A DNA stretch of 64,000 nucleotides. Origin: a virus. Shown one piece after another: positions 24,492 through 63,407 of the stretch (position 1 is its first letter; each line of letters opens with the position of its first letter). Under the pieces are notes generated by a model, which saw only the letters and a program-made list of their open reading frames with translations, was not told the DNA's origin and did no database searches. The DNA is taken from the IMG/VR virus record IMGVR_UViG_3300035661_000012, positions 62,001 to 126,000 of that record. One strand, 5' to 3'. Position numbers and translations under genes: made by a program.

Positions 24492-25538
24492 CTAATCTTT
24501 AAAATAAACAGTGATAATTTTCTTAAGTTTTCGCTCTTTAGAAACAGACAAGATCATTTGAGATGCTTGGCTGTATGGAGCTGCAATCGTATCGGCAAAA
24601 TCATCATATCCGCACATAGAAGAGGAACGAACAACTGTAGTTTTTCCAACTTCTACTATTAACTGATAATGGTAATGGCCCGTTAGTACAACGTCTGCAT
24701 TATGTATTCCATGCAATACAAAAGCTTCTCTATCACTGGATGGTGTTCCCGCAGATTTTTTCATAATATGTCTGAGATGAAAATTCCATCCTTTGATATT
24801 TATATTTATTGACTGTGAATCGCCAAGATTTGTTTTGTATTCATTGGTAACATTTTTCATTATATTCGGGTCATGCAATTGCAAACTTCTGATTGTCGTT
24901 TCCCACGCTTTGGCTACGCCTTTGTCCCAATTGTCATCGGGATGACGTGAGAGTTTTGATTTTGGCGTTCCGTGGTTACCTGGAACCCAATGAAAATCAA
25001 CGGGCAATAATTTATCGTATTTTTCTATGAAAAAGTCATTAAGCTTCTTCATATTTTTATTCAACGATGTAATAAATGCCGCAGTTTGCGCATGTACAAT
25101 ATCATCGGTTAAAAATCCTTGCGTCGGATATGTTGAACCATCGCCTTCTATATGGTCTCCAAGCATGCATATTTTAACCTGATCGTATGTATCTGGATTG
25201 TTATTAATTTCTTCGATTGCTTCATCAAAGAGCTGTGACATTCTTTTATCCGCAATCTTGAGATTAAATACCTCTTTGTATGGCGGTTTTAGAGAATGCC
25301 TTATTTTACCGAAATGGTTATCTGAAATTACTATTACTAAAGCTTCTTTATCGTCGGATATTGGTATTTTAGGATGATATATTTTTTTATGATCTCTTAA
25401 AAGTGTCTCTAATACATCGAGCCAATTACGACGGATTCTTGTTTTTGAAGCATTATTTTGTATTTCTAAATTAGAAAGAGTGGAGACAAAGTCGCACTCT
25501 TCCTCATTAAGTGGCTCTAATAATTCATTTTCATTCAT
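24492..25538 (-). CDS. Calcineurin-like metallophosphoesterase
   Basis: 348 aa. The five metal-binding blocks are visible: VISDNHFGK (D-x-H), CMLGDHIEGDG (G-D), WVPGNHGTPK (G-N-H), VLHGIH (H) and VVLTGHYHYQ (G-H-x-H). The family includes Mre11/SbcD-type nucleases and other DNA-end phosphoesterases, and the context (between primase-helicase and DNA polymerase) favours a DNA role. No SbcC-like ATPase partner is seen nearby. Start overlaps the polymerase stop by 4 bases. Confidence 0.8.
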   Translation of the reverse strand: MNENELLEPLNEEECDFVSTLSNLEIQNNASKTRIRRNWLDVLETLLRDHKKIYHPKIPISDDKEALVIVISDNHFGKIRHSLKPPYKEVFNLKIADKRMSQLFDEAIEEINNNPDTYDQVKICMLGDHIEGDGSTYPTQGFLTDDIVHAQTAAFITSLNKNMKKLNDFFIEKYDKLLPVDFHWVPGNHGTPKSKLSRHPDDNWDKGVAKAWETTIRSLQLHDPNIMKNVTNEYKTNLGDSQSININIKGWNFHLRHIMKKSAGTPSSDREAFVLHGIHNADVVLTGHYHYQLIVEVGKTTVVRSSSMCGYDDFADTIAAPYSQASQMILSVSKERKLKKIITVYFKD

Positions 25539-27964
25539 ATTGCTTCCATGTTATAAAGTGGATCTTTGATTTTTGCCAGTCCTAACAAGTATTCAGCTGT
25601 ATAACTTTGTCCGATGAATTTACCATATATTTGGTATTTGCCATTTGTTTTAGACAATTTATTATATAGCTGGTCTAATAACGGAATTGACCGTATCTCT
25701 AAAGGAATATCGTATTTTGTTTGCTCATTCCTTTCTGGCAACTTGATGACTGACATACTATTTAACCAATATGATTCTTCAGGGTCGTCCGTTCTTATAC
25801 CGCTAACTCCAACTGCAGATCCTTCTAGAGTTTTAATCATATTTTTATAACTGGACATTTTTCGGCTTGTTATTATATATTTTGATTCTTTGTTATTTAA
25901 GGTGCGTACAATAACTAAAGCACCTTTTCCAGATTTGAAAGCAATCACCTTTTTTACAATGCCATAGGTCATATTCTCGTTCTTTTTCTTGGCTTCTGCA
26001 ATTGCTAAGCGATAACGTTCAAATGGATCATATTTAATATTCAAACCGAGAGTTTCTAATTCGAATGCTGCAAGCTTTTCATCATCATACTCCAGCATTT
26101 CAGGAAATGAAATCCATTCCTTTTTGAATGGTAGTAATGACCATTCTTTTGTTTTGTAATGTTTAATGAATTTAAGCAAATAATCGATATAACGAGTTTC
26201 TCCTTCTTTGATTGCAAATACTTGTGATATTTTAATCATTGAAGAAAATGCGCCCGATTTTATCATTTGCTCAAGTACATTAGATTTAACATCTGTTCTA
26301 TATATAAAATCTGACAATGATTTAAATAGCCCGTGTTTTTGTCTTTCTGCCATGAAGGCTTCTGCTGATTGCACGCCTACATTTTTAATACCGCCTAATC
26401 CAAATAATATTGTTTTGTCATCAATAACTCTGAAATTAGCATAACTTCTATTGATATCTGGGGGATATAGTTTAATTCCGTAATATTCGGCTTCTTTTAA
26501 GAATGCTGTAACGCTTTCTTGATCGCCTATGTCAGTAATAATATTTGCGGTATAAAATTCTGCTCTATAATGTGTTTTCAAATATGCTGTTTTAACAGCT
26601 AACACTGAGTAAGCAAGAGCATGGGACTTATTAAACGCGTAATTTGAAAAGGATTCCATTTCACTCCAAAGAGCATTGATATCATCAAGGGACATCCCTT
26701 TTTGCATTGCTTTTTCTGTGAAACGAACCTTTTCTTTGGCCATTTTCTCTGTAATCTTTTTAGCAACGATCTTTCTAAATTCGTCTCCTTCATGGTCAGA
26801 ATAACCTGCTAAATCTTGCACTAGCCTTTGAATTTGTTCTTGATATATGAAATATCCATAGGTATCTTTGAAGATATCTTTTACCAAAGGAAATCTTTCG
26901 CCATGCGGCAGAATATGTGTTGGTTGGCCGCCATTGCGGATAATGATTATTTCCTTTAAGAATTCCATCGGGCCTGGTCGAAAAGCCGCATTGATAAGTG
27001 TGATGTCATTTAAATTTGTTGGCTGAAAATCTCTTACAACTCTTGAAATGCCATCTCCTTCAAATTGGAAAATACCAAGCAATCTACCTTCGGCCATAAA
27101 TTTATATGTCGCCGGATCATCTAATGGAATATCGTCCAATGTTAACTTTATTCCTCTGTTCTCTTCTATCAGCTCAAGACATGTTTTTATCACGTTTAAT
27201 GTAGATAATCCGAGAAAATCCATTTTTATTAAACCAAGCTCTTCAGCTTCTTGCATCGTGAATTCGACTATAGGTATGTCGATGCCATCAACAGTTTTAT
27301 CTTGTTGCCTCCAAACTGGTGCAACTTCGTTGATTGGCACCGATGATATTACATACCCTGCCGCATGCTGCGAAGGAGATTTTATGAGACCTTCTAGTTT
27401 AATAGCGTGGTCAACAATTCTTTTGAGATCTTCATCTTTCTCATATGCTTTTTGGAATTCCTTGAGCCCTCCTTTAGGGTCCATTATTTTCTTGAACGTC
27501 CAAGCTCGACCTAAAATGGCTGCGGGTATTAGTTTAGCATATTGATCTGCTTTAGCAAAATCATAGCCTAAAACTCTTGCTGCTGTACGAAGGGCATTTT
27601 TAGCCCATATGTAATTTCTTGCGGATAAACCAGCTACTTTGTCACTGCCATACTTATCAATAACATATTGAAGCACATGCAGTCTATCGGCATCTGGAAA
27701 ATCAATATCTATATCAGGTATTGTTCCGCCTTTGTATTTTACTGAACCTAATGGTTTTTCTTCAGCTATGCCAATTAGATAGGCTACCATTGAATTAACC
27801 TGCCGATTATCAACAGTAATTCTTTTTTCTAATATTTCAAGGAAATAGTCTTCCATCTCGGCTATTTCAATAGCACCTATTTCTTTTTTGTAAGCTTGAT
27901 ATTCAATGTCATTGAGTTGTTTGAGTCTGGGGCTCTGTTGACATATCTGTCTTAGCTTCTGCAT
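25535..27964 (-). CDS. dnaE: DNA polymerase III alpha (DnaE-type), C-terminal half
   Basis: 809 aa with its own SD (GAGGAAAACA-ATG). After a ~75-aa unrelated N-terminal lead it enters the DnaE palm at TIPDIDIDFPDADR (residues ~81-94; catalytic Asp pair). It continues through LGLIKMDFLGLSTLNV (third catalytic Asp), AAFRPGPMEF, IYQEQIQRLVQDLAGYS, YAFNKSHALAYSVLA (fingers) and a helix-hairpin-helix region near GLGGIKNVG, ending with an OB-like segment. The PHP domain and first palm segment are in the separate gene at 28318-29655. The two products must associate to make an active polymerase. Confidence 0.9.
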   Translation of the reverse strand: MQKLRQICQQSPRLKQLNDIEYQAYKKEIGAIEIAEMEDYFLEILEKRITVDNRQVNSMVAYLIGIAEEKPLGSVKYKGGTIPDIDIDFPDADRLHVLQYVIDKYGSDKVAGLSARNYIWAKNALRTAARVLGYDFAKADQYAKLIPAAILGRAWTFKKIMDPKGGLKEFQKAYEKDEDLKRIVDHAIKLEGLIKSPSQHAAGYVISSVPINEVAPVWRQQDKTVDGIDIPIVEFTMQEAEELGLIKMDFLGLSTLNVIKTCLELIEENRGIKLTLDDIPLDDPATYKFMAEGRLLGIFQFEGDGISRVVRDFQPTNLNDITLINAAFRPGPMEFLKEIIIIRNGGQPTHILPHGERFPLVKDIFKDTYGYFIYQEQIQRLVQDLAGYSDHEGDEFRKIVAKKITEKMAKEKVRFTEKAMQKGMSLDDINALWSEMESFSNYAFNKSHALAYSVLAVKTAYLKTHYRAEFYTANIITDIGDQESVTAFLKEAEYYGIKLYPPDINRSYANFRVIDDKTILFGLGGIKNVGVQSAEAFMAERQKHGLFKSLSDFIYRTDVKSNVLEQMIKSGAFSSMIKISQVFAIKEGETRYIDYLLKFIKHYKTKEWSLLPFKKEWISFPEMLEYDDEKLAAFELETLGLNIKYDPFERYRLAIAEAKKKNENMTYGIVKKVIAFKSGKGALVIVRTLNNKESKYIITSRKMSSYKNMIKTLEGSAVGVSGIRTDDPEESYWLNSMSVIKLPERNEQTKYDIPLEIRSIPLLDQLYNKLSKTNGKYQIYGKFIGQSYTAEYLLGLAKIKDPLYNMEAI

Positions 27965-28325
27965 TGTTTTCCTCGCTCAATTCTCTAATAACCGACATAA
28001 TTTCTGTTTCTTTTTCTGGTGGATAGTTTCCGCGAGAACGCTTTGTAGAAAATAATGTTTTGTTATTTTTCTCTTTAGCGCTGTATTGAAATGAGCACCC
28101 TGTGGTTTTGTGAAACTTTTCAAATAGTTTACGATATTCCTTGTCATTAAATGACCATTGACCACCGCATTGTTTACAATAGTATGTATAGGGGCCTTTT
28201 TCAAAGCCTTCAGTTGTGGCCGCTTTTAGAAAGTCCAAAAGTGTTTTTTCGCCAAACTCTTTTGATAGGTCATTTAATTTGCCGGTAAATATTAGTTCAC
28301 CAATGTGTGCGTTGTTATTATCCAT
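27909..28325 (-). CDS. Small zinc-finger protein between the two polymerase halves
   Basis: 138 aa, SD GAGGAACAC. Overlaps the N-terminal polymerase gene by 8 bases and the C-terminal one by 56 bases. Contains YYCKQCGGQWSFNDKE...HKTTGC, a CxxC ... H/C putative zinc site around residues 48-77, and a Glu/Thr/Gln-rich disordered tail. No homing-endonuclease motif is visible. Its placement suggests either an insertion that split the polymerase or a subunit that bridges the halves; both are inference. Confidence 0.6.
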   Translation of the reverse strand: MDNNNAHIGELIFTGKLNDLSKEFGEKTLLDFLKAATTEGFEKGPYTYYCKQCGGQWSFNDKEYRKLFEKFHKTTGCSFQYSAKEKNNKTLFSTKRSRGNYPPEKETEIMSVIRELSEENNAEAKTDMSTEPQTQTTQ

Positions 28326-29655
28326 GTGTTCCTCGGTGTTTCATCCATTGCTCAAATGGATATTCTGGAAAAGATATTAGTGGTATTGCGCTTCTGCCTT
28401 TATTTAGAAATCGGCCAAAGCTTAAATCGTATTTTATTGGGTCTATATCTGTTATTCTAAGCGCATAAGATACAAGGCTTCCAGCTGCAGAGCCTCTGCC
28501 TGGTCCTACTAGAATTCCATGAGTCTTAGCCCATACAACATAATCAGAAACTATTAAGAAATAGCTAGCAAAGTTCATCTGAGTGATTATTTGAATCTCA
28601 TATAGCAATCGATTTTTATATTCCGCGGGAACTTTATTTGTCCCCATTCGTTTAATAAGACCTTCTATTGCTCGTTTGCGAAATAGTTCGTCTTCATGAC
28701 GAATATTTCCAAACGTCGGAATTTTATAATTACCGAACTCGAATTCAAAGCTTACTCTATCTGCTATCTCTAATGTATTATTTATAGCTTCTGGATATTG
28801 TGAAAATCTCTGTTTTAAATATTCCTCGTCGGGCAGATAGTAACCATCTCCCGGATATTTTCCAAAATCTGGATCATCTAAGGTTGTTTTCTTTCTATCG
28901 GCTAACATCATATCGTGTATAGTCACATCTTGGTCAAGCACCATATGTGTGTCGCCGGTTGCAACTGTTTTAATTTTATATTTGTCGGCGAATTCTAATA
29001 TTGCTTCTCTAATAATAGCTTCCTGTCTTAACCCATGGTTCATAATCTCTAAATAAAATCTGTCGCCGAAAATTTCCTTATGCCATTTAATTACATCTTC
29101 TGGACTTTCTTTACGATGTTTATCGCAAATATGTCCATCGCTACAATCAGCGCATTCTATAGCCGTTAGTGTTTCATAGCCATCTTCGTCTTTGAATGAG
29201 ATATTTCTTTGGTCCATAATAGTTTTTGATAAATTAGAGGCAAGGCATCCAGATAATACTATTAAGCCTTCATTGTATCTGCGTAATAATTCTCTATCTA
29301 TGCGAGGCTTACGATAAAACGATTCAGCTTTAAATGATTCGTTTACTAAAGTGCATAAATTCTGCCAGCCCTTTTTATTCATAGCTATCAATGTTAAATG
29401 ATAGTAATGGTCTATCTTATTCTCTTTATCAAATCGCGAACGATTAGCAACATAAGCTTCCATTCCTAAAATAGGCTTAATATCAACGGCTTTCATTGTT
29501 TTGTAAAATTCAACTGCTCCAGATAATGTTCCATGATCAGTTAAAGCAATTGCCGGGTATTTTAGTTCTTTTGCTCGTTTTGCTAAATCTGGAATCTTGG
29601 CAACACTATCCATCGTAGAGAATGTCGTGTGCTGATGTAGATTTACGAAGTTCAT
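28318..29655 (-). CDS. dnaE: DNA polymerase III alpha (DnaE-type), PHP + N-terminal palm
   Basis: 445 aa, SD AGGAAA. PHP domain ligands are intact: H7-x-H9, D40-H41, E66, C137, D235-x-H237, so a metal-dependent exonuclease/phosphatase activity is possible. A Cys-containing insertion (C168, C171, C177) sits in the PHP domain. The palm begins with GPGRGSAAGSLV (384-395) and SYALRITDIDPIKYDLSFGRFLN, after which normal DnaE continues into PDxDxDF. Here the chain instead runs ~28 unrelated residues and stops. The catalytic Asp pair is on the other polypeptide. Confidence 0.9.
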   Translation of the reverse strand: MNFVNLHQHTTFSTMDSVAKIPDLAKRAKELKYPAIALTDHGTLSGAVEFYKTMKAVDIKPILGMEAYVANRSRFDKENKIDHYYHLTLIAMNKKGWQNLCTLVNESFKAESFYRKPRIDRELLRRYNEGLIVLSGCLASNLSKTIMDQRNISFKDEDGYETLTAIECADCSDGHICDKHRKESPEDVIKWHKEIFGDRFYLEIMNHGLRQEAIIREAILEFADKYKIKTVATGDTHMVLDQDVTIHDMMLADRKKTTLDDPDFGKYPGDGYYLPDEEYLKQRFSQYPEAINNTLEIADRVSFEFEFGNYKIPTFGNIRHEDELFRKRAIEGLIKRMGTNKVPAEYKNRLLYEIQIITQMNFASYFLIVSDYVVWAKTHGILVGPGRGSAAGSLVSYALRITDIDPIKYDLSFGRFLNKGRSAIPLISFPEYPFEQWMKHRGTHG

Positions 29656-34560: not shown

Positions 34561-34648
34561 AGTATTTCTATATTAGTTAAAATGTAATTTATTTTTTTTT
34601 GGTGTATTTTCAATGTAAACGCCAAAGGTTTAAACTTATTTTCGTCTT

Positions 34649-34691
34649 AAAAAGTTCCTTTATACCCCGATTTCTCGGGGTTTAAAAGGAA
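34649..34691 (-). terminator. Terminator of the nrdJ / structured-RNA transcript
   Basis: Minus strand TTCCTTT ... CCCCGA-GAAA-TCGGGG ... AAAGGAA then CTTTTT: a two-part stem with a GNRA tetraloop and a T-run. Confidence 0.85.
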
Positions 34692-34994
34692 GACCGTGAT
34701 ACGGCTATTCGCCCTTATGGGCTCTAACAAGCCAGTTATACCACACAGCAGCAGCCGTTGCTGGCATTTATGACAGCAACAGCCGCTGCTGTTAATTGCT
34801 AAGCCATTATTGTTTAATGGTTTCCTCTTAGGCTCCTTTGCAGGAGCCCATCAAAGGAATCGTGCGACGCACTGTTACTACCAGGACTCTTCGAATCCAT
34901 CGTGCGGTGTCCATGGTAGAGATCTAGATCCAATGCATCCTATACAGCTACAACTACGGTTGTAGCTGTTGCTGATTATGTCTCAGATGTTCTG
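34649..34994 (-). ncRNA. Hairpin-rich non-coding region downstream of nrdJ
   Basis: The 463 bases between 34561 and 35023 hold no gene. On the minus strand there is a run of stem-loops: 34980-34994 (CTCAGA/TCTGAG), 34944-34969 (11-bp stem ACAGCTACAAC), 34878-34919 (CTACCA/TGGTAG plus GGAC/GTCC), 34862-34872 (GTGCG/CGCAC), 34831-34848 (GGCTCCT/AGGAGCC), 34745-34792 (19-bp stem with two G-U-type substitutions) and a terminator at 34649-34691. It is GC-richer than its flanks. Either a structured 3' UTR of nrdJ or a free-standing RNA. Confidence 0.6.
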
Positions 34995-35023
34995 AGTTTT
35001 TCATTTTCTTTAATAATTCATTT

Positions 35024-37818: not shown

Positions 37819-38352
37819 TTAATCTTGAGTTGGTAATATCCGAGTGATATTTTTCATTTCACTCATAGTTGCGTTCGCTAACACTTCAAGATTTGAAGCA
37901 ATAGAGCGAAGTTTTTTTAGCTGTAACTCAAAGAATTCAACTGTTATTTTGCCAAGTTCAACCTCTACATAGTCATTTACGTATTCACCTCTGGCTAGAG
38001 ATTCTGCCTTGGTTCTGGTTTTTATCGTTCTATCACTACTTAATAACCTCGCAGATTTATCTTCGATTTGTTTAGTAACAAAAGCAGATAGAGTTTCTGA
38101 ACTGAATTTTAATTCAGAATGTATATCAGCACACATTTCTATTTTTCTAGATATATCGCTGATAAGATATTTAAGTGTGGCAAAATCTGGTTTTTCTGGA
38201 ATTGGCACAGAAAAATATAGTGTCCACTCTCTAATGCTTTTGCCTTTGAATTTAATTTGCGTTGTAAAAAACTGCGAGTTTCTACCAAAATTCTCGAAAT
38301 GAGCTATGTTGGTTTCGCTTATGGCTGTATTTAAATTTTTATTTTCTTCCAT
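37819..38352 (-). CDS. Hypothetical protein upstream of nrdJ (177 aa)
   Basis: ATG at 38352 with AGAGG upstream; a GTG at 38385 is possible but lies in the leader hairpin. Long helices (LKYLISDISRKIEMCADIH, LQLKKLRSIASNLEVLANA). Eleven bases before nrdJ, so co-transcribed. Function unknown; not an NrdB-type ferritin protein by motif. Confidence 0.5.
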   Translation of the reverse strand: MEENKNLNTAISETNIAHFENFGRNSQFFTTQIKFKGKSIREWTLYFSVPIPEKPDFATLKYLISDISRKIEMCADIHSELKFSSETLSAFVTKQIEDKSARLLSSDRTIKTRTKAESLARGEYVNDYVEVELGKITVEFFELQLKKLRSIASNLEVLANATMSEMKNITRILPTQD

Positions 38353-38585
38353 TGTAAAATCCTCTGTTTTCCAACATGCCTCCACTTTGCGATGGAGGCT
38401 TATGGACTACCTCATCTCTGTTGTCTTTTAAACGAGAAGTCCTTTCTCGTTTTAGTCGCTTGAATGAATTTGCATTCAAGTGAGCATCAGCGTTAGTTCC
38501 CTATGCTCGTTCTTCCCTAGCGTCGTGAACTAATTATATAGCCAGCACGAGCAATTTCGTGAACAGACCATATAATTAGCACGCG
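38353..38585 (-). other. Structured intergenic leader of the nrdJ operon
   Basis: No gene. Minus-strand structure: a three-part stem (GCGCGTG, CTAATTATAT, inner CACGA paired with TCGTG, ATATAATTAG, CACGACGC) at ~38520-38587, then GAGCAT/ATGCTC, CTTGAATG/CATTCAAG, AAACGAGAA/TTCTCGTTT and GCCTCCA/TGGAGGC hairpins. The last ends ~30 bases before the ATG at 38352. A TATAAT at 38533-38538 could be a -10 box. Confidence 0.55.
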
Positions 38586-40375: not shown

Positions 40376-40849
40376 TTAATCTCCTTCTACAATAGCATTT
40401 TCTACGCCAAGGATAATATTTTGGTTATCTTCAATAAAACGCTTTAACATCAAAAATTCTCCCATTGTTAATGGCACTGATACTTTAAGATCACCAGAGA
40501 AGAATGTTATAAAAAATGTTCCCGGATTTTGTCCTGATGCTATCATTAATTTTTTGTAAATAGCTTGTTCGTCTGCTTTGCCTGCATTTGGATTATGCAC
40601 TAAGTCTAATTTCATTTCTTGTCCGCGTTGATAATTATATATAGCATTATAGAATAGCGGATAGTCATTTGAACTAAAAGCAAATGTTATTTTTTTGCTC
40701 CAATCATAGACTTTGTCTTTTCCTGGTATTGCGTTTGCGACATTAAATAATAAAGCACCTTGTTTTTGTAGAAAGCCATTATTTGCTTTGGCTCTTATAA
40801 TATCGCATTGTAAGGCTGCACTTTTTTTGTAGATTTGAAAATGATTCAT
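40376..40849 (-). CDS. Whirly-like single-stranded DNA-binding protein
   Basis: 157 aa, SD AAGGA. The sequence follows the Whirly/p24 family pattern in order: GALLFNVANAIPGKD, VYDWSKKITFAFSS (the 'DWs-K-x-x-F-x-L-S' block, residues 48-60), LVHNPNAGKADE (the 'HDP..G' block, 83-93), IYKKLMI, GTFFITFF, and VPLTMGEFLMLKRFIE...ILG. Whirly proteins are ssDNA binders in plastids and related folds occur in some phages. Probable phage SSB. It lies in the reverse-transcriptase/ubiquitin-like operon. Confidence 0.65.
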   Translation of the reverse strand: MNHFQIYKKSAALQCDIIRAKANNGFLQKQGALLFNVANAIPGKDKVYDWSKKITFAFSSNDYPLFYNAIYNYQRGQEMKLDLVHNPNAGKADEQAIYKKLMIASGQNPGTFFITFFSGDLKVSVPLTMGEFLMLKRFIEDNQNIILGVENAIVEGD

Positions 40850-40850
40850 C

Positions 40851-41111
40851 TTATTCTTCCTTATTTGTATTATCTTGTTTATAGCTATCGGGTCCCATTA
40901 ATTTATATAAGTTTTCATGTGGGACTGGTTCTCTTTTGCCTGTGAATTTTCCTCGTTTTTCTGGATCTAAATGATCACGAGAATAGAAGATAGCGCCACA
41001 ATTTAGACAAGCTTCATCTGCGTCAAAAGCTTTCCATATTTTGTTAACTTTGTCGCTACCACAAAACGGGCATTTGTTATCGAGAATATTTGGTGTTGTG
41101 TCAGTTGTCAT
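40851..41111 (-). CDS. Zinc-ribbon protein (86 aa)
   Basis: SD GGAG; the start overlaps the reverse transcriptase by 11 bases. CPFCGSDKVNKIW ... EACLNCGAIFY is a classic two-knuckle (CxxC...CxxC) zinc ribbon, followed by a charged tail. Possibly a nucleic-acid-binding partner of the reverse transcriptase or of the polymerase upstream. Confidence 0.6.
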   Translation of the reverse strand: MTTDTTPNILDNKCPFCGSDKVNKIWKAFDADEACLNCGAIFYSRDHLDPEKRGKFTGKREPVPHENLYKLMGPDSYKQDNTNKEE

Positions 41112-41949
41112 TTAAGATTCTCCGTGCAAGTTTTTGTAAATAAAAATAGTTTTTCTTGTTATCTGCTAGATTAAGTTGTTCGATTTTTCCACGTATATGC
41201 GGATTGATCTGACGAATATTAATTAGCTCTTTGATAATGTTCTGAATATATTGACGCTCAATATTTCGTTTAACATTAACCACGATGCCTAAAACTAATT
41301 GTCTTTGATAATAAGGCATCACTTTACTTTTTCGTAAGTTTAGTTCGAAACCATATCGCTTACAAATATCGTTAATAATCGATATAGTTTCTTTTGGAAC
41401 AGAGTTACCAGAGATATATAGATTATCTCCATAATTTGAATAACTCCATTGGTTTCGATCGCATATTTCCTGTATACTAACATCAATCGGTTGTCGTATA
41501 GCATTAGCGATATGTGGAGATGTTATGAAACCTTGTGGAAGTTTTCCATTGTACGTTAATAATTCAATAAAATCTTGTAAATCAATGTTAAGCAAATTAA
41601 GTAACTCGGGGATTTTCTGATTATAAACAAATAGCCCGATTAGATGATCTTTCGTAATGTTATCATAGAAATTCTTAATATCGGCTTCTAAAACGTATCG
41701 TTTGCCAACATGAATATTAGCACAGTCTCCCCTTGATCTTCCTTTTATCCAAGCATAGCTTGCATGATGAATATTAAAAACATTGTTATCAATGAAATAG
41801 TCAAGAATATATTTCTGTGCCTTTTTATATTCTGAATTTGGAGCAATAATATGACGACGTTTTATTTTGCCTTTCTTTTTTCTATGCTGCACATACGTTG
41901 ATACATAATTTGCTTTATTGGCAAGTATATTCTTTATAAGCTGACGCAT
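41101..41949 (-). CDS. Reverse transcriptase (retron/Abi-like), YGDN motif
   Basis: 282 aa. RT blocks in order: RRHIIAPNSEYKKAQKYIL (entry), CANIH at 76-80 (compare the retron NAxxH), VLEADIKNFYDNI with catalytic D90 (motif A), LPQGFITSPHIANAI at 137-151 (motif B), YSNYGDNLYIS with Y173-G-D175-N176 (motif C; YADD is usual, second Asp replaced by Asn), FELNLRKSKVM (motif D), and LVLGIVVN at 218-225 (compare retron VTG). It starts 5 bases after the E1 stop, without an SD, so is translationally coupled. No room for an upstream msr-msd RNA. No maturase, endonuclease or protease domain. Confidence 0.85.
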   Translation of the reverse strand: MRQLIKNILANKANYVSTYVQHRKKKGKIKRRHIIAPNSEYKKAQKYILDYFIDNNVFNIHHASYAWIKGRSRGDCANIHVGKRYVLEADIKNFYDNITKDHLIGLFVYNQKIPELLNLLNIDLQDFIELLTYNGKLPQGFITSPHIANAIRQPIDVSIQEICDRNQWSYSNYGDNLYISGNSVPKETISIINDICKRYGFELNLRKSKVMPYYQRQLVLGIVVNVKRNIERQYIQNIIKELINIRQINPHIRGKIEQLNLADNKKNYFYLQKLARRILNDN

Positions 41950-41954
41950 GTTAT

Positions 41955-42761
41955 TTACGATGCTTTTTGTAATAAAGTTGCTAAATCAAACTCTTTTTCC
42001 ACGAATGGGTTAGTATTCCATTCAATAAATCTCACTTTGCCGGTTCTATTAAATAATACCATGTCATATTTAAGGTCGTTGTCAACATACATAGAATAGA
42101 CCATATTAGTTATCAGTGTTCCGGCGAGTAAATTTACAGCAAGAGATTGTGGATTGAGTAATGCATTGACGGCACAATTTTGTCTTTGTTCTCTTTCGAC
42201 TGCTTCTTCTTTCTCTGCTTCTTCATTATTAAATTCATGCGGATAAACATCAACAACTGTTCTTGACTTAGTAATTAACGAGTCATAATAAACTATTTGT
42301 CCAAATGTATCGGTATTTCCGCAGCTTAACCATGCTATTGATTGAGAATTAGTAAACCGATTTCTTGATCTAACAAATTCATTAATTATTAAGCGTGTAC
42401 GGATATTATCTACAGTATCTATAATCAAATATGTGTCTGGATTGCTATAATATCCTGATCTATATGGATCGCAGATAGAATAGATATTATCTTTATCTAA
42501 AAAGCTATTTATATATGATACCTTTACTCCAAAAGCAAAGCCATAGCGTTTAGCTAATACTTCTGCTTTATATTCTCCAATATCATCGACAACAAAATTT
42601 TGCCGATTACAATTTTTCTCTTCTACTTTATCTGCGTCCATAATTATAATATCCGGAGCATTAGGAAGATGACTAGCCATTCTAATGATATTTGGTATAG
42701 CATATCCTCCTGTTCCGCCAGCACCAACAAATAATATTGTGCTTCTTTTTGAGACGACCAT
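41955..42761 (-). CDS. ThiF/E1-like activating enzyme (PRTRC-ThiF type)
   Basis: 268 aa, SD AGGAG. Adenylation motifs: VGAGGTGGY (13-20), MDADKVEEKN (D42/D44 region), CNRQNF (R53) and DIGEYKAEVLAKRYG, matching E1/ThiF/MoeB. A Cys at 196 (RQNCAVNALLNPQSLAVNLLAG) is in the region where E1-like proteins keep their thiolating Cys. No MoeZ-type CxxC zinc pairs, as in the PRTRC ThiF subgroup. Predicted to adenylate the C-terminus of the small Ubl encoded at 45279-45467. Confidence 0.85.
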   Translation of the reverse strand: MVVSKRSTILFVGAGGTGGYAIPNIIRMASHLPNAPDIIIMDADKVEEKNCNRQNFVVDDIGEYKAEVLAKRYGFAFGVKVSYINSFLDKDNIYSICDPYRSGYYSNPDTYLIIDTVDNIRTRLIINEFVRSRNRFTNSQSIAWLSCGNTDTFGQIVYYDSLITKSRTVVDVYPHEFNNEEAEKEEAVEREQRQNCAVNALLNPQSLAVNLLAGTLITNMVYSMYVDNDLKYDMVLFNRTGKVRFIEWNTNPFVEKEFDLATLLQKAS

Positions 42762-42763
42762 AT

Positions 42764-43708
42764 TTATCTTCTCCTGTTTTTGTAATAATCCTCGTATCCG
42801 AAGCCATATTGCATTGGATCTAAATAAGTGTGTATGCTTTCACTTGCAGGTGGATCTCCATAGATTGGTCTTGTGGATATTATTTCGTCGTCAAATAAAT
42901 CGCCTTGAATAACTCTATCTTTAGTTTTGTAATCATTATTATTTGCTAGCCATTCGTTTACTCTATTTTCATAGAGACGATTAGACAACTTGTTTTCATA
43001 ATCACCAAACATAGTAATATCAAATTCGTGTTTCCACAAAGGCTCAAAAACATCTTCTAAATTAAGATCAACTTTTTTATTTCCGAGTGCAAATCTTATT
43101 TGATATGTCGGATATATTTTAAATATATCGCCAATTACTAAGTGAATACTTTCTAAATTTCGATGATCGGCATCATCAACTGCTGAAAATCTACCAGTCA
43201 TTGTATGATGAGAATGTGCTTGTACTACTAAAATATTATCTTTATCCGACGGAAAATTATCATGTTCTATATCCCATTCTACAAGAGCGCCTGAGATAAT
43301 TTGTTTTGGAATCCAGAAAAAGAATTCTTGTCTTATTTTATTCCAATAAATTCGCACATAAACTTCTGTCTTATATTTTTGATATACCACACGGAACCAT
43401 TCCAATATATCTAAAAACATTTTAGCTGGAACTTTTGGCACCTTTAATTGTATGCCTTCTTTTTGGTATTCGCCATTTACTATTCCCTTAAAATCATAAC
43501 TAACTTCTTTAATAACAAAACGAGCTAAATCAGTTTCTTTAACAGTATATATACCGTCGTTTTGAATAAGCGTAGTTGAATTTACTCCCGGTTGAAAAGT
43601 ATATGTTCCAATTTGTAGTACATGGCTATTATTTATTTGATTCCGTAGTTCATTTATTGCTTGAAGTTCACTATCTGTGAAACCATTGTTTTGATTTTTC
43701 TTAGCCAT
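42764..43708 (-). CDS. JAB/MPN (JAMM) isopeptidase, PRTRC protein A-like
   Basis: 314 aa from MAKKNQ (AAGGAG SD; an earlier in-frame ATG at 43729 lacks an SD). The JAMM motif is perfect: AHSHHTMTGRFSAVDDAD gives H165-x-H167-x7-S175-x2-D178. Preceding strands (VRIYWNKIRQEFFFWIP) and a long N-terminal region fit PRTRC protein A. JAMM enzymes cleave Ub-like tags or process their C-termini. Sits between the E2-like and E1 genes in one operon. Confidence 0.85.
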   Translation of the reverse strand: MAKKNQNNGFTDSELQAINELRNQINNSHVLQIGTYTFQPGVNSTTLIQNDGIYTVKETDLARFVIKEVSYDFKGIVNGEYQKEGIQLKVPKVPAKMFLDILEWFRVVYQKYKTEVYVRIYWNKIRQEFFFWIPKQIISGALVEWDIEHDNFPSDKDNILVVQAHSHHTMTGRFSAVDDADHRNLESIHLVIGDIFKIYPTYQIRFALGNKKVDLNLEDVFEPLWKHEFDITMFGDYENKLSNRLYENRVNEWLANNNDYKTKDRVIQGDLFDDEIISTRPIYGDPPASESIHTYLDPMQYGFGYEDYYKNRRR

Positions 43709-43722
43709 ATTTTGTTCTCCTT

Positions 43723-44382
43723 TTACCATAATTTTATTGCTTCTTTAATTGTTTTTCCTGACATTTGTCCACTTCTTAATATGTGAGAGGCCTCAACCCA
43801 TTCTTGCTCTGATTGAAATGTAATGTTATTGACACGGCGGATATCATCCATATTAACCAAATCCGTATTTCTTTCGGCATTAAACCACATATTAATAATT
43901 GTATTTAGTTCATGTAAACCATGAATACTTCTTAATTCTCTAGTTAAAACATCTCCCCAGCACAAACGTGCATCACCATAAACATTATTTAAGCGAACTT
44001 GGTATATTCTGGTATTTTCTCGTGGCGGATTAAAACTACTAAATATCGACGTATTAATAACTTTATACATATTATTCTCTACCCGCAAATCAAATAAGAA
44101 ATACAGATACGGATAGTGTAAATGATATTGTATATTAGAATATGTAAAATCAAGATATTGCGTATTTCTACACACTAATACCTTCATGTTTACATCTTTA
44201 ACTTCATACCATACTATCCATAGAGGCATAATCATACTTGATTCTTCTTTAATACTAAATAATTGCCTAAGCTCATCTATGGAAACTATTTTAGGTTCGT
44301 AAATATTGGCGCTTCCTTGTTTATTGATATTGTCTATAATCGCTATACGATCATATACTGTTATATTAGCTATTTTGTTCAT
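43723..44382 (-). CDS. PRTRC protein B-like, E2-type fold with candidate catalytic Cys
   Basis: 219 aa, SD GGGAG. Central block: HYPYLYFLFDL, then FNPPRENTRIYQVRLNNVYG and DARLCWGDVL. This matches the PRTRC B signature 'YhaP.fNVY.dGrvCWG'. It also parallels E2 enzymes, where 'HPNvY..G.iCL..L' places the catalytic Cys eight residues after Asn; here N133 and C141. I infer a ubiquitin-conjugating (E2-like) role. Overlaps its upstream neighbour by 17 bases. Confidence 0.75.
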   Translation of the reverse strand: MNKIANITVYDRIAIIDNINKQGSANIYEPKIVSIDELRQLFSIKEESSMIMPLWIVWYEVKDVNMKVLVCRNTQYLDFTYSNIQYHLHYPYLYFLFDLRVENNMYKVINTSIFSSFNPPRENTRIYQVRLNNVYGDARLCWGDVLTRELRSIHGLHELNTIINMWFNAERNTDLVNMDDIRRVNNITFQSEQEWVEASHILRSGQMSGKTIKEAIKLW

Positions 44383-45001
44383 CTGATAACTCCCTGATTA
44401 AAATCTTATGTATAAAATCCAGCGCTATGAAATATGATAATAAAGAAAAAGCAACCCTATGATTCCATATTGGAGATGAAGTAATAATAAGCGGATATCG
44501 AGTCTGCTCTTCTAATCCTGCATTTACAATTTGTATTAAGTAATTTGGTGCAGTATTATCATCGCCGATATATTTCATAAAATCATTACGCAGAACATTC
44601 CATGCTTCTGCATATTTTGCTTTACCTTCACTTGTATCAACGATATTGTAAAATGTTGATGCTATAAAATTAGTAATAAAACGTGATAGCACTAATTGTA
44701 GCTCATAGCCCCTAGCTCGTGTTGTTGTTGCAGATGTTGAAAATGAACATCCGCCAATATTTAAGACTGTTTGATGATGAGCTGCTGAATATTGTTCAAT
44801 AAGAGGATTCATATTTTCTCTATAATATTTTTCAACAGCTTTAATAATTGTAAACATTATTCTTCTGTTGTAACTTGCGGTTAATTGCCATTGGTTGCGT
44901 GTAGTAATAAATCTTTTATCTAATGCGTATTTAACCAGCAGCAATAGCCGTAAGTTTGTTGATACGTTTTGCATGTTAGCAATTACTTTGTCGTCATACA
45001 T
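44366..45001 (-). CDS. Hypothetical protein of the Ubl operon (211 aa)
   Basis: Helical, with a CSFSTSATTTRARGYELQLVL segment containing a single Cys at ~85 and a C-terminal hydrophobic helix (HRVAFSLLSYFIALDFIHKIL). Overlaps the E2-like gene (17 bases) and the 75-aa gene (8 bases). It may be the target, adaptor or an extra PRTRC component; I cannot match it to PRTRC D, E or F by eye. Confidence 0.5.
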   Translation of the reverse strand: MYDDKVIANMQNVSTNLRLLLLVKYALDKRFITTRNQWQLTASYNRRIMFTIIKAVEKYYRENMNPLIEQYSAAHHQTVLNIGGCSFSTSATTTRARGYELQLVLSRFITNFIASTFYNIVDTSEGKAKYAEAWNVLRNDFMKYIGDDNTAPNYLIQIVNAGLEEQTRYPLIITSSPIWNHRVAFSLLSYFIALDFIHKILIRELSDEQNS

Positions 45002-45234: not shown

Positions 45235-45268
45235 TAAAAAAGCCCCTCCACATAACGTAGAGGGACTT
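45235..45268 (-). terminator. Terminator after the Ubl gene
   Basis: Minus strand AAGTCCCTC / GAGGGGCTT stem (one T-G pair, 11-base loop) followed by TTTTT. It separates the Ubl gene from the E2/JAB/E1/RT genes; read-through would lower the latter relative to the Ubl. Confidence 0.85.
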
Positions 45269-45278
45269 TGGTTGTGGA

Positions 45279-45467
45279 TTATTTACCAAGTTTGCCAGCT
45301 TTCATTTTGAAATTGATAACTTTGTTTCCAGAATCATCTGTATAAACTTCTGCTACTGTGTCATCAATTTCTGGTGCATGACCACGCAATGCAGCTTTAG
45401 CAGCATCTACACTAATGTCACCTGGAACTGTTGCTGTCATATCAGCATATTTTACGATTGTTGCCAT
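45279..45467 (-). CDS. Small ubiquitin-like protein, PRTRC protein C-like
   Basis: 62 aa, SD AAGGAG. Beta-grasp-like order: strand ATIVKYADMTATVPG, helix SVDAAKAALRGHAPEI, strand VAEVYTDDSGNKVINFKMK, tail AGKLGK. PRTRC C proteins end similarly (YTFKRA-x-GTKG, from memory). A terminal ...LG-K could be trimmed by the JAB enzyme to leave a C-terminal Gly for E1 activation. The gene is followed by its own terminator, so it should be the most abundant product of the set. Confidence 0.65.
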   Translation of the reverse strand: MATIVKYADMTATVPGDISVDAAKAALRGHAPEIDDTVAEVYTDDSGNKVINFKMKAGKLGK

Positions 45468-45830: not shown

Positions 45831-48800
45831 TTAATAATCCACATCTTCTTCGGCGAATTCTGCCTCTTCTTCATCTATTTCTTCAATAACTGAAGATGAT
45901 TCAAGAATATCGTTGATATACGGGCGAATTATTTTACAGTATCCTATTTTAGATAGATGATTATCATCTATGTTGTTTAGATTATCAACAAGGCCTGCTA
46001 TATATTCTGAATCTCCGCCTGAATGAATTCTAGAAATTGTAATTATGGTTTTATCCTCTTTCGCTAATTTCATGGCTTGTAAATATAAATCAGCATCTTC
46101 AGGAGTCATATCTAGCATATTTGTTAATATAGGCTTGATTAACTCTACTTGCTCTTCTCCAAAATTAGATAAAGCAAATACATCATAACCAGAAGCCCCA
46201 CCTTCTATATGTTTAACTCCTTCAATAACCGTATCTTGCAGAATGCGCGAAGTGATATGCTGTAGGTACATCATCTTATGTTTATTGATATTACCATTAG
46301 CATACATCCATTCAATTGCAGTATGGATTCTCCATAAGTCTACAGTCCCCATTCCTATTCTTGTTTTGGCTATTGCTGCGTCAGCTAATATATCAGCAAA
46401 TTTATCGCGTGAAATTTCATAATATTTGAATGGTTTCTCTTCAACATCTAGAAATTTCTCGTTTTTGCTAATTTCGCTTTTGATATATTGTGTTATCCAA
46501 CGTTTTTCATAACCTAACAAATAGTCAGGATTAGCAGAATATTTAGCTAATTCTTGTTGAATAGATTGATGCAGAGGCACAGCAATAGGATATAAGTCGC
46601 CATCTGTATCTGATTTGTCAAGCAGGATATCTATCGTATTACGCAGAACAGCGCCGGCAGTATATTCTGGCAACACAATCTGATTGATATCCATTTTGTA
46701 TTCTTTCTTAAGATATTTAGCAAACTGATTAAGCGTAAGAACTTCTCTTGTATGGAATTGAAATCGCCAAATAACTGGGTTTCTCACTCCAATTTCATAG
46801 ATACGTTTAAGACCCGTTTGCTTTTTGAATGCTTGGATTTGTTTAATGAGTCTTTGGTCAAGAACAACTGTCGTTCTTCTTGGCACATAGACACTTGCTA
46901 GTTGTTTGAGATTTCCTCCAGGTAATTCTGGGGAAGTAACTTGAGATAATGCGGCTCTTTTAGAAAATATCTCATGATTGATATAAAAGATATACTTCTT
47001 GAGATTTTCTAAAAGCTGTTCTTTTGTCGCTTCTCGTTTGTAAAGTTTTCGAAGGGTCATTAATATAAATTGAGAAAATGTAACAAATTGCGGATAAGTA
47101 ACTGTACCCGCCCCAACATATGTCATTTGCTCAATAATATTAAAGCTTGGAAATCTTATATATCTATTCTCATATTTTACATAGAATCCTTGGTTAAATG
47201 GATTAAGTAGGATATTATTAGTATTATATGAGACACTCCATGACGATGGATTAAAATAACTCCTCGATATTTTATCTTGAAAAACTGGGTCGTCCCATTG
47301 ATATACTGGAGTTCCATCATTATATCGGTTGAAAGATCTCAATTTGAGGAGTTGCTTTAAAATTCCTTTGTTTGATCCGTTTATGTAATTGTCATAGATT
47401 AGATTTGCGGCTTTTTCAAGATGATGATTATTTGCATTATACATATATTTCATCGTTTCTTGCATTACACGTACACCATTACTTTTACAATCATTACTAA
47501 GATCGGTAACGCCAAAACTCATAAGACCAAAGTAAACCTTATAAGTTTTGCCCATATAGACCCAGTCAACTTGTTGTAATTCTTGGCACATAATGTTGAC
47601 TTCATCTTCGGGATAATCATTAGCATTTAATGTGATAGAATCGTCTGGGCCATTTTCTGATAAAACAAAGTTTAACCAGCTCATTTTAATGCCATTGTGT
47701 CCGCTTTTAAGGGAAGTTGGACCAATGACCATCTGGACTGGTATTTTATCTTTGCCGAATTGTTTTGGTGGTATAATATATCCTAGATCCTCTCTTGGAT
47801 GCGTAACACCTTTAAGTCCATAATCTGATATTAATCTAGCAACTCCCATTTTGGCTACAATCTTCACGATAATTTTATAAGAGTTGTACATGGGGATTAT
47901 ATCTTCGATCACTCCACCTTTGTAATTAATATCATATATAACTGCAGGGAATCCTTCGAGATCATAAGCTATTATATCACCAGGATTTAATACATCGCCT
48001 TTTTGAGCTAAAATGACATCTTTGTTGGGAGTCATAAAAGTGCGGCGAACAAAGAATTCTTTTTCGGCTAATTGCTTATTAATGAGTATCTCGCCAACGG
48101 ATAATGTAAATTTACCTAGCGGCGATTGATCTTCAGTTTTGTCTGTTGTTATTGGTATAAAAACAGTATAAGCATTAATCTTTTCTTTATTATTACTTTC
48201 AAATAAATGATCCTGTTCTGGCTCTAATGGCTGTAATAATTCACTGGTATAGTGCAATCTTAGTCTTTCTGGCAAAGATGACTTAGGCTCATATATTGAA
48301 GTAATTGCGTTATCTGTAGAAGAATATCCTGCGGCTTGTATTTGCTTACCAAACAAGTTACAGTAAATTCCTTCGGATAATTCATCTACGCGAATTGGAT
48401 CATTAAATAGCTTAGAATATTTCCTAATATCTTCTTCGGATTTTGGAATAGCGGATTCCCATAATGCTCTACCAATACAATCGTAATATTCCTTTTTATT
48501 ATTCTTTTGTCTGAATGTTTTTACTATGCGAATACGATGCTCAATTTTTAGACGATTATTATAACTGACAGGCTCTATTTTCATTAAGCCATCCAAAACT
48601 TTAGAAACATCTTTTCTAAGGAATTTATGATGTATATATTTATAGTCAGATCGCCTGAAATATTCTAGTCTATCCATTACAACAAGGATTAGCATTTTAT
48701 CTACATCAAGAATGCATTCATCGTCGTCTAAATAGAAATATGGAGATAAACGAATATCGTCTGCTGTCAATTTTGGAATGATAACTGGAGAATTAAACTG

Positions 48801-48923
48801 ATTATTAAAAATTAACTCATAATGATCTCCGTTACGCATACGGAATAAAGATCCCGCATAAAAATTTAATACATTATCCAAGCTATTAATTTTATCTAAA
48901 CGTTCGAGTATTTTTTTATACAT
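45831..48923 (-). CDS. Predicted compact single-chain DNA-dependent RNA polymerase (beta/beta' fusion)
   Basis: 1030 aa, SD GAGGAG. Beta-like barrel: VKIVAKMGVARLISDYGLKG (353-372, compare RHGNKGV; K371), then EDLGYI (compare EDMPY) and PVQMVIGPTSLKSGHNG (395-411, compare vDiilNPlGvPSRMN.GQ). Beta'-like region: GGNLKQLASVYVPRRTTVV (669-687, compare GKRVD.SgRsVI), RNPVIWRFQFHTRE (714-727, compare LNRAPTLHR) and DKSDTDGDLYPIAVPLH (769-785, compare NADFDGDQMAVHVPLS; metal-binding D772/D774/D776). Blocks occur in RNAP order in one chain, about a third of the size of bacterial beta+beta'. C-terminus acidic. First gene of the operon with the Ubl set. Confidence 0.8.
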   Translation of the reverse strand: MYKKILERLDKINSLDNVLNFYAGSLFRMRNGDHYELIFNNQFNSPVIIPKLTADDIRLSPYFYLDDDECILDVDKMLILVVMDRLEYFRRSDYKYIHHKFLRKDVSKVLDGLMKIEPVSYNNRLKIEHRIRIVKTFRQKNNKKEYYDCIGRALWESAIPKSEEDIRKYSKLFNDPIRVDELSEGIYCNLFGKQIQAAGYSSTDNAITSIYEPKSSLPERLRLHYTSELLQPLEPEQDHLFESNNKEKINAYTVFIPITTDKTEDQSPLGKFTLSVGEILINKQLAEKEFFVRRTFMTPNKDVILAQKGDVLNPGDIIAYDLEGFPAVIYDINYKGGVIEDIIPMYNSYKIIVKIVAKMGVARLISDYGLKGVTHPREDLGYIIPPKQFGKDKIPVQMVIGPTSLKSGHNGIKMSWLNFVLSENGPDDSITLNANDYPEDEVNIMCQELQQVDWVYMGKTYKVYFGLMSFGVTDLSNDCKSNGVRVMQETMKYMYNANNHHLEKAANLIYDNYINGSNKGILKQLLKLRSFNRYNDGTPVYQWDDPVFQDKISRSYFNPSSWSVSYNTNNILLNPFNQGFYVKYENRYIRFPSFNIIEQMTYVGAGTVTYPQFVTFSQFILMTLRKLYKREATKEQLLENLKKYIFYINHEIFSKRAALSQVTSPELPGGNLKQLASVYVPRRTTVVLDQRLIKQIQAFKKQTGLKRIYEIGVRNPVIWRFQFHTREVLTLNQFAKYLKKEYKMDINQIVLPEYTAGAVLRNTIDILLDKSDTDGDLYPIAVPLHQSIQQELAKYSANPDYLLGYEKRWITQYIKSEISKNEKFLDVEEKPFKYYEISRDKFADILADAAIAKTRIGMGTVDLWRIHTAIEWMYANGNINKHKMMYLQHITSRILQDTVIEGVKHIEGGASGYDVFALSNFGEEQVELIKPILTNMLDMTPEDADLYLQAMKLAKEDKTIITISRIHSGGDSEYIAGLVDNLNNIDDNHLSKIGYCKIIRPYINDILESSSVIEEIDEEEAEFAEEDVDY

Positions 48924-60186: not shown

Positions 60187-61338
60187 CTAATGTTTTTTCC
60201 AATATTGTTTTGCCAGATTAATCCATTTGCCTGTTTTATCAATCTCCGAAAGTTTTTCAAGTCCTTGCTTATGATTAAATCGCTTCCAATGTCTACCTGC
60301 ATAATATATCCATTCGCCAACCTTATCAATTTCTAAAAGCTTTTCAAGTCCTAGCTTATAATCAAAGCGTTTCCAACGTGTTCCTGCATGATATATCCAT
60401 CTGCCCGTATTATCAATCTTCGAAAGTCTTTGAAGACCTGACTTGTAATCAAAGTTTTTCCAATCATTTCCTGCATAATATATCCAGCGTCCAGTTTGGT
60501 CAACTTGTATTAATCTTTGCGCTGCCAGCTTATAATTAAATTTATCCCAATAGACGCCCGCATAATATATCCAATCACCATTTCTGTCAGCTTTTAAAAG
60601 TCCTTCAAGTCCTAAGTCATAATCAAATTCAGTCCAATCAATCCCCGCATAATATATCCGTTGTCCAGTTGGGTCAACTTTTGATAATTTTTGAATTCCC
60701 AGCTTATAGTCGAATTTATCCCAATAGATTCCTGCGTAATAAATCCATTCGCCAGTTTTATCAATTTTAAGGAGTCCTTTAAGTCCTAAGTCATAGTTAA
60801 ACTGTTTCCAATGCTTACTAGCGGAGCAAATCCATTGACCAGTTTTATCCACTTCTAATAACTTTTTAAGCCCAAGCTCATAATCAAAAAAATCCCAATA
60901 TGCTCCGGCATTGAATATCCATTCTCCGTTTTTATCAACTTCAAGCAGCCTCTTAAAACCTAATGCGTAATCAAATTGCTCTAAATATTCTCCGGCGGAA
61001 GATATCCAGTCGCCGGTCTTATCGTATTTGGATAAAATCTTAAAATCATCTGGCAGGAATTCTAATATTTTGATTTTATTCCCAACGGCTTTTTTGTCAT
61101 CTTTGTCAACCACATCAAGCTCAACAATACCATAATGAGACTTTTTTATATTATGATAAAAGAGAGTCTCTGATATGTCGAAATTGGCTGAAGCGTGAAA
61201 TCCCGCCTCGCGTAATTTAACATCTTTCTTATTCATTCTATAGGTTTTGCCTTCTTTGTAGTAAAACTTAGCTTTATCAAAATCAGGCTGGCAATAATAA
61301 CCTTTTTCATCTCTATAGAAAGCTTTGATAGTTCGCAT
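60187..61338 (-). CDS. Repeat protein, DUF7666-like N-terminus + nine 29-aa repeats
   Basis: 383 aa, SD GGGAGG. The N-terminal ~110 residues (MRTIKAFYRDEKGYYC, FYYKEGKTY, AGFHAS, KIKILEFLPDDF) match a phage N-terminal domain that I recall as DUF7666-like (Y-x-x-G-x-x-Y ... C-x-x-GFH). From ~118 on come nine units of 29 aa, pattern F-D-Y-x-L-G-x-x-x-L-x-x-x-D-x-x-G-x-W-I-Y-x-A-G-x-x-W-K-x. Repeats likely form a solenoid. Paralogs at 61736 and 62405. Confidence 0.75.
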   Translation of the reverse strand: MRTIKAFYRDEKGYYCQPDFDKAKFYYKEGKTYRMNKKDVKLREAGFHASANFDISETLFYHNIKKSHYGIVELDVVDKDDKKAVGNKIKILEFLPDDFKILSKYDKTGDWISSAGEYLEQFDYALGFKRLLEVDKNGEWIFNAGAYWDFFDYELGLKKLLEVDKTGQWICSASKHWKQFNYDLGLKGLLKIDKTGEWIYYAGIYWDKFDYKLGIQKLSKVDPTGQRIYYAGIDWTEFDYDLGLEGLLKADRNGDWIYYAGVYWDKFNYKLAAQRLIQVDQTGRWIYYAGNDWKNFDYKSGLQRLSKIDNTGRWIYHAGTRWKRFDYKLGLEKLLEIDKVGEWIYYAGRHWKRFNHKQGLEKLSEIDKTGKWINLAKQYWKKH

Positions 61339-61356
61339 TGGTCCTCCCTTATTTGG

Positions 61357-61716
61357 TTATCTTATTGATTTAAGGATGTTATGTAATGCCCAGTATTCGG
61401 GATTAAAGATGGCATCGATCGTTTCTGGTAAGAGATTCACTGTTATAACGATTATAAAAACTAATATAACCACAAATAAAAGCATGGCTATAGATTCAAA
61501 ATCACCTTTGGTATTCTTGAGGTTCTTGTCTTTATTATGTTTAAAGGCATATTTGAACATTAATGTATCTGCGATTATAAAAAAGACAATCGTCGCTATA
61601 TTTTTAAATGCTTCAATATGAGCTTGATGCATGAGTACATTCCACAAATGATCAGTTGTTGTACCAAGCTTATTTGCTAATCCTTCCAATAGATTTGTAA
61701 TTTTGTTATCTAACAT
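61357..61716 (-). CDS. Two-TM membrane protein (119 aa)
   Basis: SD AAGGG. Hydrophobic segments at ~39-57 (NIATIVFFIIADTLMFKYAF) and ~75-96 (IAMLLFVVILVFIIVITV). N-terminus amphipathic. Sits between paralogs, so may be part of the same accessory block. Function unknown. Confidence 0.5.
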   Translation of the reverse strand: MLDNKITNLLEGLANKLGTTTDHLWNVLMHQAHIEAFKNIATIVFFIIADTLMFKYAFKHNKDKNLKNTKGDFESIAMLLFVVILVFIIVITVNLLPETIDAIFNPEYWALHNILKSIR

Positions 61717-61735
61717 TGTTTTATTCCCTTTTTTA

Positions 61736-62386: not shown

Positions 62387-62404
62387 CTATTACTCCTTTT
62401 AATC

Positions 62405-63040: not shown

Positions 63041-63407
63041 CTGTTCGCCCTTTATTTTCTTTCCAATTCGGCTCATACTCGTTTAATAATTGTTTTGCTA
63101 AATCTTTCCAACTTTGTCCCCAAGTTCGCAAATTTGCATTGGCTTCTCTTAATTCTTCAAGCTCTTTCTCAAGTCCAGTCAATTCATATTGTATATCGTA
63201 GAATTTATCTTCGTGTCCACATCCATCGCCAATTTCACGGCATTCGCATTTTGATTGATATGCTATGTTATACACTTTATTTATCGCTCTAATTATACTG
63301 TCTATATCTGGACAAGTGTTTTCAGGAGGTTTTTGGAGACCCAAGATTTCTTCGCTTGTTTTTGGCTTCGGCTTAATCTGGCCGTTGATATTTATTACTT
63401 CTCCCAT
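63015..63407 (-). CDS. Coiled-coil/cysteine protein (130 aa)
   Basis: SD AAGGAG. KCECREIGDGCG Cys/Gly cluster in mid-protein and a heptad helix (LTGLEKELEELREANANLR), ending with an Asn-rich tail. Upstream of the paralog trio. Unknown. Confidence 0.45.
   Translation of the reverse strand: MGEVININGQIKPKPKTSEEILGLQKPPENTCPDIDSIIRAINKVYNIAYQSKCECREIGDGCGHEDKFYDIQYELTGLEKELEELREANANLRTWGQSWKDLAKQLLNEYEPNWKENKGRTDENNQSLL

Follow-up and report, generated by a model that had tools for sequence, protein, structure and literature searches.

A divergent retron-lineage reverse transcriptase encoded in a phage ubiquitin-like conjugation operon and its recurrence in other phages

A gene encoding a reverse transcriptase (RT) of the retron lineage was identified within a ubiquitin-like conjugation operon of a large phage, and RT genes recur next to such conjugation genes in several unrelated phages. 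This arrangement suggests a link between synthesis of DNA from RNA and protein tagging. The DNA analyzed, referred to as the window, comprises 64,000 nt of a phage record of 154,304 bp, which may itself be a fragment. The pairing had been called unfamiliar in the original prediction, and no report of an RT paired with PRTRC or ThiF/JAB conjugation genes was found in the open-access literature searched, a scope which leaves most subscription papers and preprints outside. The partners of the RT-msDNA complex in known retrons are toxins or nucleases. If a retron-type RT were indeed linked to E1, E2-like, and JAB proteins, two systems that have so far been studied apart would be joined.

The reverse transcriptase and its motifs

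The RT gene (41101-41949, minus strand) is an intact reading frame of 282 aa. The TAA stop codon of the preceding E1-like gene is separated from the RT start codon ATG by a spacer of five bases (ATAAC) without a Shine-Dalgarno sequence, and the RT gene overlaps the following zinc-ribbon ORF by 11 nt. Direct reading of the DNA confirmed the original prediction of an RT with a YGDN motif placed five bases behind the E1 stop without a Shine-Dalgarno sequence; the predicted lack of an msr-msd-sized space directly upstream of the gene was verified as well.

Profile searches placed the protein with the retron RTs. The PADLOC models retron RT_III-A (2e-44) and retron RT X (2e-42) matched, as did NCBIfam retron_St85 (5e-39) with 134 bits, which is below the curated score of 235; weaker NCBIfam matches were obtained for group II (1.8e-12) and Drt3a (1.8e-6). 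The match to Pfam RVT_1 (5.5e-18) exceeded the gathering score. In a comparison with PDB sequences retron RTs came first (solved Ec67, Ec86, Ec83, and Ec78), and motifs A, B, and C were correctly placed by sequence alignment to these solved retron RTs. DRT/Abi and group II-like RTs have the RT domain and the YxDD region in common with the window RT, but its profiles are far closer to retrons. Because the NCBIfam scores remained under the curated cut-offs, the protein is, as judged from its sequence, a divergent member of the retron lineage and no named retron RT.

The motifs were located at residues 76-80 (CANIH, region X), D90 (motif A), 137-140 (LPQG), Y173-G-D175-N176 (motif C), and in the segment LVLG ending at G221 (region Y). 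CANIH and LVLG, described beforehand as retron-like segments, are both present as stated. As compared to the region X pattern NAXXH, CANIH retains Ala and His and has the Asn replaced, as do 2 of 16 validated retron RTs. Region Y (VTG) reads VLG in the window RT and VTG in the RTs of two further phage records, L027 and L098; again, two of the 16 validated retron RTs deviate. Motif A Asp90, LPQG, Asp175, and GIVVN of region Y are all retained; furthermore, a signature MPY[YF]QRQ.V.GIVVN, its first part reading MPYYQRQ in the window, is common to the RTs of the window, L027, and L098.

In an alignment of 29 RT sequences, hardly any variation was seen at T171, R172, A174, and D176 outside the window RT, in which all four are changed and the motif C consensus YTRYADD has become YSNYGDN. 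A lone sequencing error is unlikely since several positions of motif C depart from the consensus. The catalytic tetrad YADD serves as a criterion for retron RTs (PMC6868368); it is present in the RTs of L027, L098, L059, L068, and L103 and replaced by YGDN in the window RT. Known variants of motif C in retron RTs, for example YCDD, retain both Asp residues. The same D to N change occurs naturally in a further RT, that of phage record L026 (5798-6733), where the motif is YADN. Such variants offer a way to probe the role of the third carboxylate of RTs. Activity of the window RT is perhaps reduced, because D90 and D175 are kept and the third carboxylate is gone; catalysis may be reduced, altered, or lost, or the protein may serve mainly as an RNA-binding scaffold. 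Two additional features of record L026 were recorded, a structured 294-nt gap upstream of its RT (5134-5427, z -7) and a HEARO RNA (14900-15111) next to an ORF judged by eye to be IscB-like.

It has to be considered that the window RT is catalytically dead or decays under relaxed selection, in which case the gene would encode a scaffold or would be in the process of being lost. We regard this as unlikely. The departures at several nearly invariant positions in motif C and in regions X and Y fit such a decay, and so do the end branch of the window RT in the RT tree, which has a length of 1.78 as compared to a median of 0.58, and the outcome of an insensitive search near this RT in which no msr-msd was found. 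However, the ORF is intact and tightly packed between its neighbors, and motif A, LPQG, D175 of motif C, MPYYQRQ, and GIVVN are all kept. Furthermore, L026 provides a second D to N variant, and a GDN motif is used by the polymerases of Mononegavirus.

The conjugation operon surrounding the RT gene

All operon genes described here are located on the minus strand. The E1-like adenylyltransferase (PRTRC ThiF-like; 41955-42761) matched TIGR03736 PRTRC_ThiF at 4.4e-24 and contains the invariant residues C196, a candidate catalytic Cys, G13, G15, D42, and D44. The JAB/JAMM peptidase (PRTRC A-like; 42764-43729; TIGR03735 PRTRC_A, 3.6e-11) has an intact HSH...SxxD motif with invariant H172, H174, S182, and D185. 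The PRTRC B/E2-like protein (43723-44382) gave weak profile matches of 0.016-0.018; its Cys141, part of a CxG motif, is invariant among six phage homologues. Hence, the candidate catalytic residues of the E1, E2-like, and JAB proteins are all intact in the window. An operon protein named p44366 (44366-45001) has a counterpart at the equivalent place in L027 (6473-7063), a match that is not independent because the search profile was built from the window and L027 sequences. Row 6d of a published table (PMC1779556) lists an "alpha-helical protein" for operons of this type, and p44366 may correspond to it.

An ORF of 62 aa (45279-45467) ending with GKLGK aligns with ORFs at the equivalent place in L027 and L098, the latter of which matched PRTRC_C at 0.001, below the cut-off. 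From these sequences the ORF is tentatively assigned as a ubiquitin-like protein (Ubl). A strong terminator-like hairpin (45239-45269) lies behind this ORF; the putative Ubl could therefore be made in excess. ClpP-type protease genes were observed upstream of the putative Ubl in L027 (4850-5419) and L098 (1820-2485), and none was found in the record of the window.

On the other side of the RT, a zinc-ribbon protein (40851-41111; weak zinc-ribbon matches), the start of which overlaps the RT stop, and a Whirly-family protein (40376-40849; PF08536, 2.1e-13) are encoded. As originally predicted, gene order and profiles place the RT in the same operon as the E1, JAB, and Whirly genes. The Whirly search profile was, like that of p44366, built from the window and L027, so that matches there occur by construction; PF08536 independently confirmed the Whirly protein, above its cut-off, in the window, L027, and L098. 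Plant members of this family bind single-stranded DNA. The Whirly gene in these three records, together with the RecA gene of the window, is in favor of a role of the RT in phage DNA repair or recombination, and PMC12337344 gives a precedent for RTs acting in repair. Nevertheless, such a role appears very unlikely: the window RT is of retron lineage and not group II-like (5e-39 for the retron profile vs 1.8e-12 for group II), and its steady neighbors are the E1, E2-like, and JAB genes, whereas no Whirly match was obtained in the records L059, L068, L119, and L097.

Operons of the 6d type have the composition Ub-JAB-E1-E2 (Iyer et al. 2006, PMC1779556). The window holds JAB, E1-like, and E2-like genes, the last with a conserved Cys, in one operon, the combination by which the 6d type is recognized. 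With PRTRC and 6d operons (PMC1779556) it shares the putative Ubl, the E2-like protein with its conserved Cys, JAB, and ThiF/E1, but differs from them by its location in a phage, by scores below the cut-offs, by ParB not being found, and by the added RT. Bit scores as compared to the curated PRTRC cut-offs were 85 vs 145 for ThiF, 43 vs 102 for A, and 15 vs 131 for B; PRTRC_C had no match in the window by profile search. ParB (PF02195) had no match in the 154-kb record, which is possibly incomplete, nor in the L027 and L098 records; the same search was positive in 10 of 14 control genomes. Since the scores are under the cut-offs and ParB was not found, the cassette is, by its sequences, PRTRC-like and of the 6d type, not PRTRC proper.

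Cassettes of this kind also occur in large phages without an RT. In Bacillus phage vB_BauM_KLEB27-3 (record L003) E2-like, JAB, and E1 genes are present in the same order, and neither an RT nor a Whirly gene was detected in this record, unlike in the window.

Recurrence of the neighborhood in phages

Phage loci were gathered by alignment scans with RT and E1, by gene lists, and by profile searches; E-values of the locus scans are relative to the candidate stretches, and the virus records may be fragments. Alignments were required for these scans, as viral scans with single proteins (RT, E1, or a 1030-aa protein) found nothing. The 1030-aa protein (window 45831-48923, minus strand) has no Pfam family and contains a DKSDTDGD stretch that recalls the DxDGD motif of RNA polymerases.

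A check for an RT-E1-JAB neighborhood in related genomes had been proposed together with the original prediction; this neighborhood recurs in the records L027, L098, L059, L068, L119, and L097. Record L027 (204 kb) contains the p44366 counterpart, E2-like, JAB, E1, RT, and Whirly in the order of the window, and its RT start overlaps the E1 stop; the RT of L066 is near-identical to that of L027 across their overlap. In L098 (120 kb) the order is E2-like, JAB, E1, HNH, RT, SpoVG-like, and Whirly, with one HNH gene separating E1 from RT. L097 has an RT overlapping the E2-like gene, with JAB and E1 next. The order JAB, E1, RT was found in L059, L068, and L119, where the JAB of L068 is truncated by the contig end and those of L059 and L119 were called by eye from the HSH...SxxD motif, without a Pfam match. 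L103 contains JAB and E1, with the RT about 5 kb further on. An RT located near an E1 in L113 is of a different type and was left out of the support.

On a tree of 66 RTs, association with conjugation genes required five changes, at least three of which are forced by well-supported branches. A single clade of all association RTs was borderline (AU p 0.051), and a clade of the window, L027, and L098 was not rejected (p 0.286); the placement of the window RT on its long branch is unsure. Among the ten RT-scan records holding an E1, the two genes lay no more than 4.5 kb apart in four, and random placement gave this in 801 of 200,000 draws (0.4%); this statistic is supportive only, since the limit was picked post hoc and the four records include two related ones. 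An E1 was present somewhere in 13 of 39 RT-bearing records, and some of these may be ordinary proteins of the ThiF/MoeB type. Among 28 bacterial RT loci, none had an E1 or JAB nearby.

The RT was missing from 19 of the 24 phage records found via E1. Because of this proportion and the repeated association, the RT is an accessory that was repeatedly gained and does not belong to the core of the cassette. A lack of the RT in most homologs of the operon, named with the original prediction as a finding that would speak against it, thus applies to the cassette generally; it does not apply to the version with a Whirly gene, as the records concerned (window, L027, and L098) all have an RT. Conjugation thus does not need the RT, and this counts against a functional wiring of the two.

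The main rival to a coupled reading is that RT and conjugation cassette are separate anti-defense or inter-phage weapons, carried together in a shared accessory operon and without mechanistic coupling. The RT would then make a decoy or competing RNA-DNA product directed against host retrons, and conjugation would have targets of its own. Accessory genes tend to cluster in phages, RT and cassette occur apart in many of them, and the two lie about 5-9 kb apart in L103 and in the L106 record (G043) and more than 10 kb apart in six other records. However, tight adjacency recurs with overlapping or nearly overlapping frames and in different RT lineages, which is more than sharing of an operon predicts; we consider separate weapons somewhat unlikely.

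Structured RNAs and a possible RT-conjugation complex

Loci were searched for msr-msd RNAs by pattern and fold, with a threshold that recovers Ec86-like controls and is reached by none of 103 control segments. The strongest candidate among 61 RT loci was found in L059 (11553-11787), where one additional ORF separates it from the upstream JAB-E1-RT genes. In this retron-like RNA, a 9-bp a1/a2 repeat (TACGCAATA/TATTGCGTA) has AGC immediately behind a1 and is accompanied by short msr-like hairpins and a single long stem of the msd kind (about 46 bp). Near the window RT, the search revealed no canonical msr-msd; as no more than about 10% of the viral RT loci are caught by it, this null result is no evidence of absence. 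Immediately behind its RT, L068 contains an extremely structured stretch of 439 nt (2276-2714, z -14.6). A long hairpin and a GAACA...stem-CUAAG-stem motif in three copies were observed in this RNA, but no clear a1-AGC-a2 was found. L119, L027, and L098 yielded no convincing msr-msd candidate. Two gaps considered as RNA candidates were rejected: 1933-2389 of L027 contains tRNA genes, and 11336-11860 of L098 is a tmRNA. The tmRNA gene of this phage record was located by Rfam at 11409-11814 (1.5e-33).

Within the window, which belongs to a 95%-coding genome, two candidate structured intergenic RNAs led the gaps tested, both located downstream of the RT on the same strand (minus). The top one, nc2 (34561-35023), is a 463-nt candidate with many hairpins (MFE -166.8, z -12.5) and lies 3' of a ribonucleotide reductase gene; nc1 (38351-38585, z about -6.4 to -6.7) separates two parts of the operon and doubles as 5' leader of the ORF 37819-38349. 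From position alone, it is a guess that nc1 or nc2 is the RNA partner of the window RT. Long inverted repeats of the kind present in L059 and L068 are absent from the window, and no convincing relatives of nc1 and nc2 were found in the phage records searched. Apart from chance miRNA matches on long hairpins, Rfam searches with nc1, nc2, and the RNAs of L059 and L068 yielded no family.

An effector is controlled in retrons by a complex of the RT, its RNA, and the cDNA copied from this RNA. The window RT resembles those of bacterial retrons (types II-A/III-A by profile; Ec86 and Ec67) in its RT domain and has segments at regions X and Y that deviate partly from theirs, and its relative in L059 has an msr-msd-like RNA, but downstream of the RT instead of upstream; furthermore, a ubiquitin-like conjugation cassette in a phage operon is present here in place of a known effector, and YGDN replaces YADD. 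The simplest reading puts the conjugation module in the effector position, because the neighborhood is repeated and L059 contains an msr-msd.

Hence, we tentatively favor, as a real possibility though one short of probable, that an RT of the retron lineage was recruited into a phage PRTRC-like/6d conjugation operon and works in the fashion of retrons with the conjugation module as partner. The RT would bind a structured phage RNA to form a nucleoprotein, including cDNA where the RT is active; E1, E2-like protein, and JAB would replace the toxic effector as partner of this complex, which would control or localize the activity of the conjugation module or its choice of target. A possible role of the Whirly protein is to bind the nucleic acid. 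Physical coupling of the RT to the conjugation module, as well as any cDNA synthesis, is what we infer from these observations. Against such a wiring we count the YGDN motif of the window RT, its long and unsure branch, and the lack of a canonical msr-msd found near it by the insensitive search. More far-reaching, and somewhat unlikely, is the idea of a new class of three-part phage system, assembled more than once in evolution, whose retron-type RT-RNA(-cDNA) complex would serve the conjugation module as sensor or guide, with protein tagging being directed by the synthesis or sensing of nucleic acid. The recognizable msr-msd in the L059 operon makes the question of RT and conjugation directly testable, and a coupling, if true, would provide a handle on the poorly understood PRTRC-like cassettes of phages in the form of an RNA or DNA product that can be sequenced.

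Additionally, two other regions of the window, both on the minus strand, showed unusual features. DNA polymerase III alpha (25535-29655) is apparently encoded by two ORFs, split near the active-site motif PDIDIDFPD, with a small CxxC ORF between them. The region 60187-63076 encodes three paralogous proteins made of DKTGEWIYYAGxxWKxFDY-type repeats.
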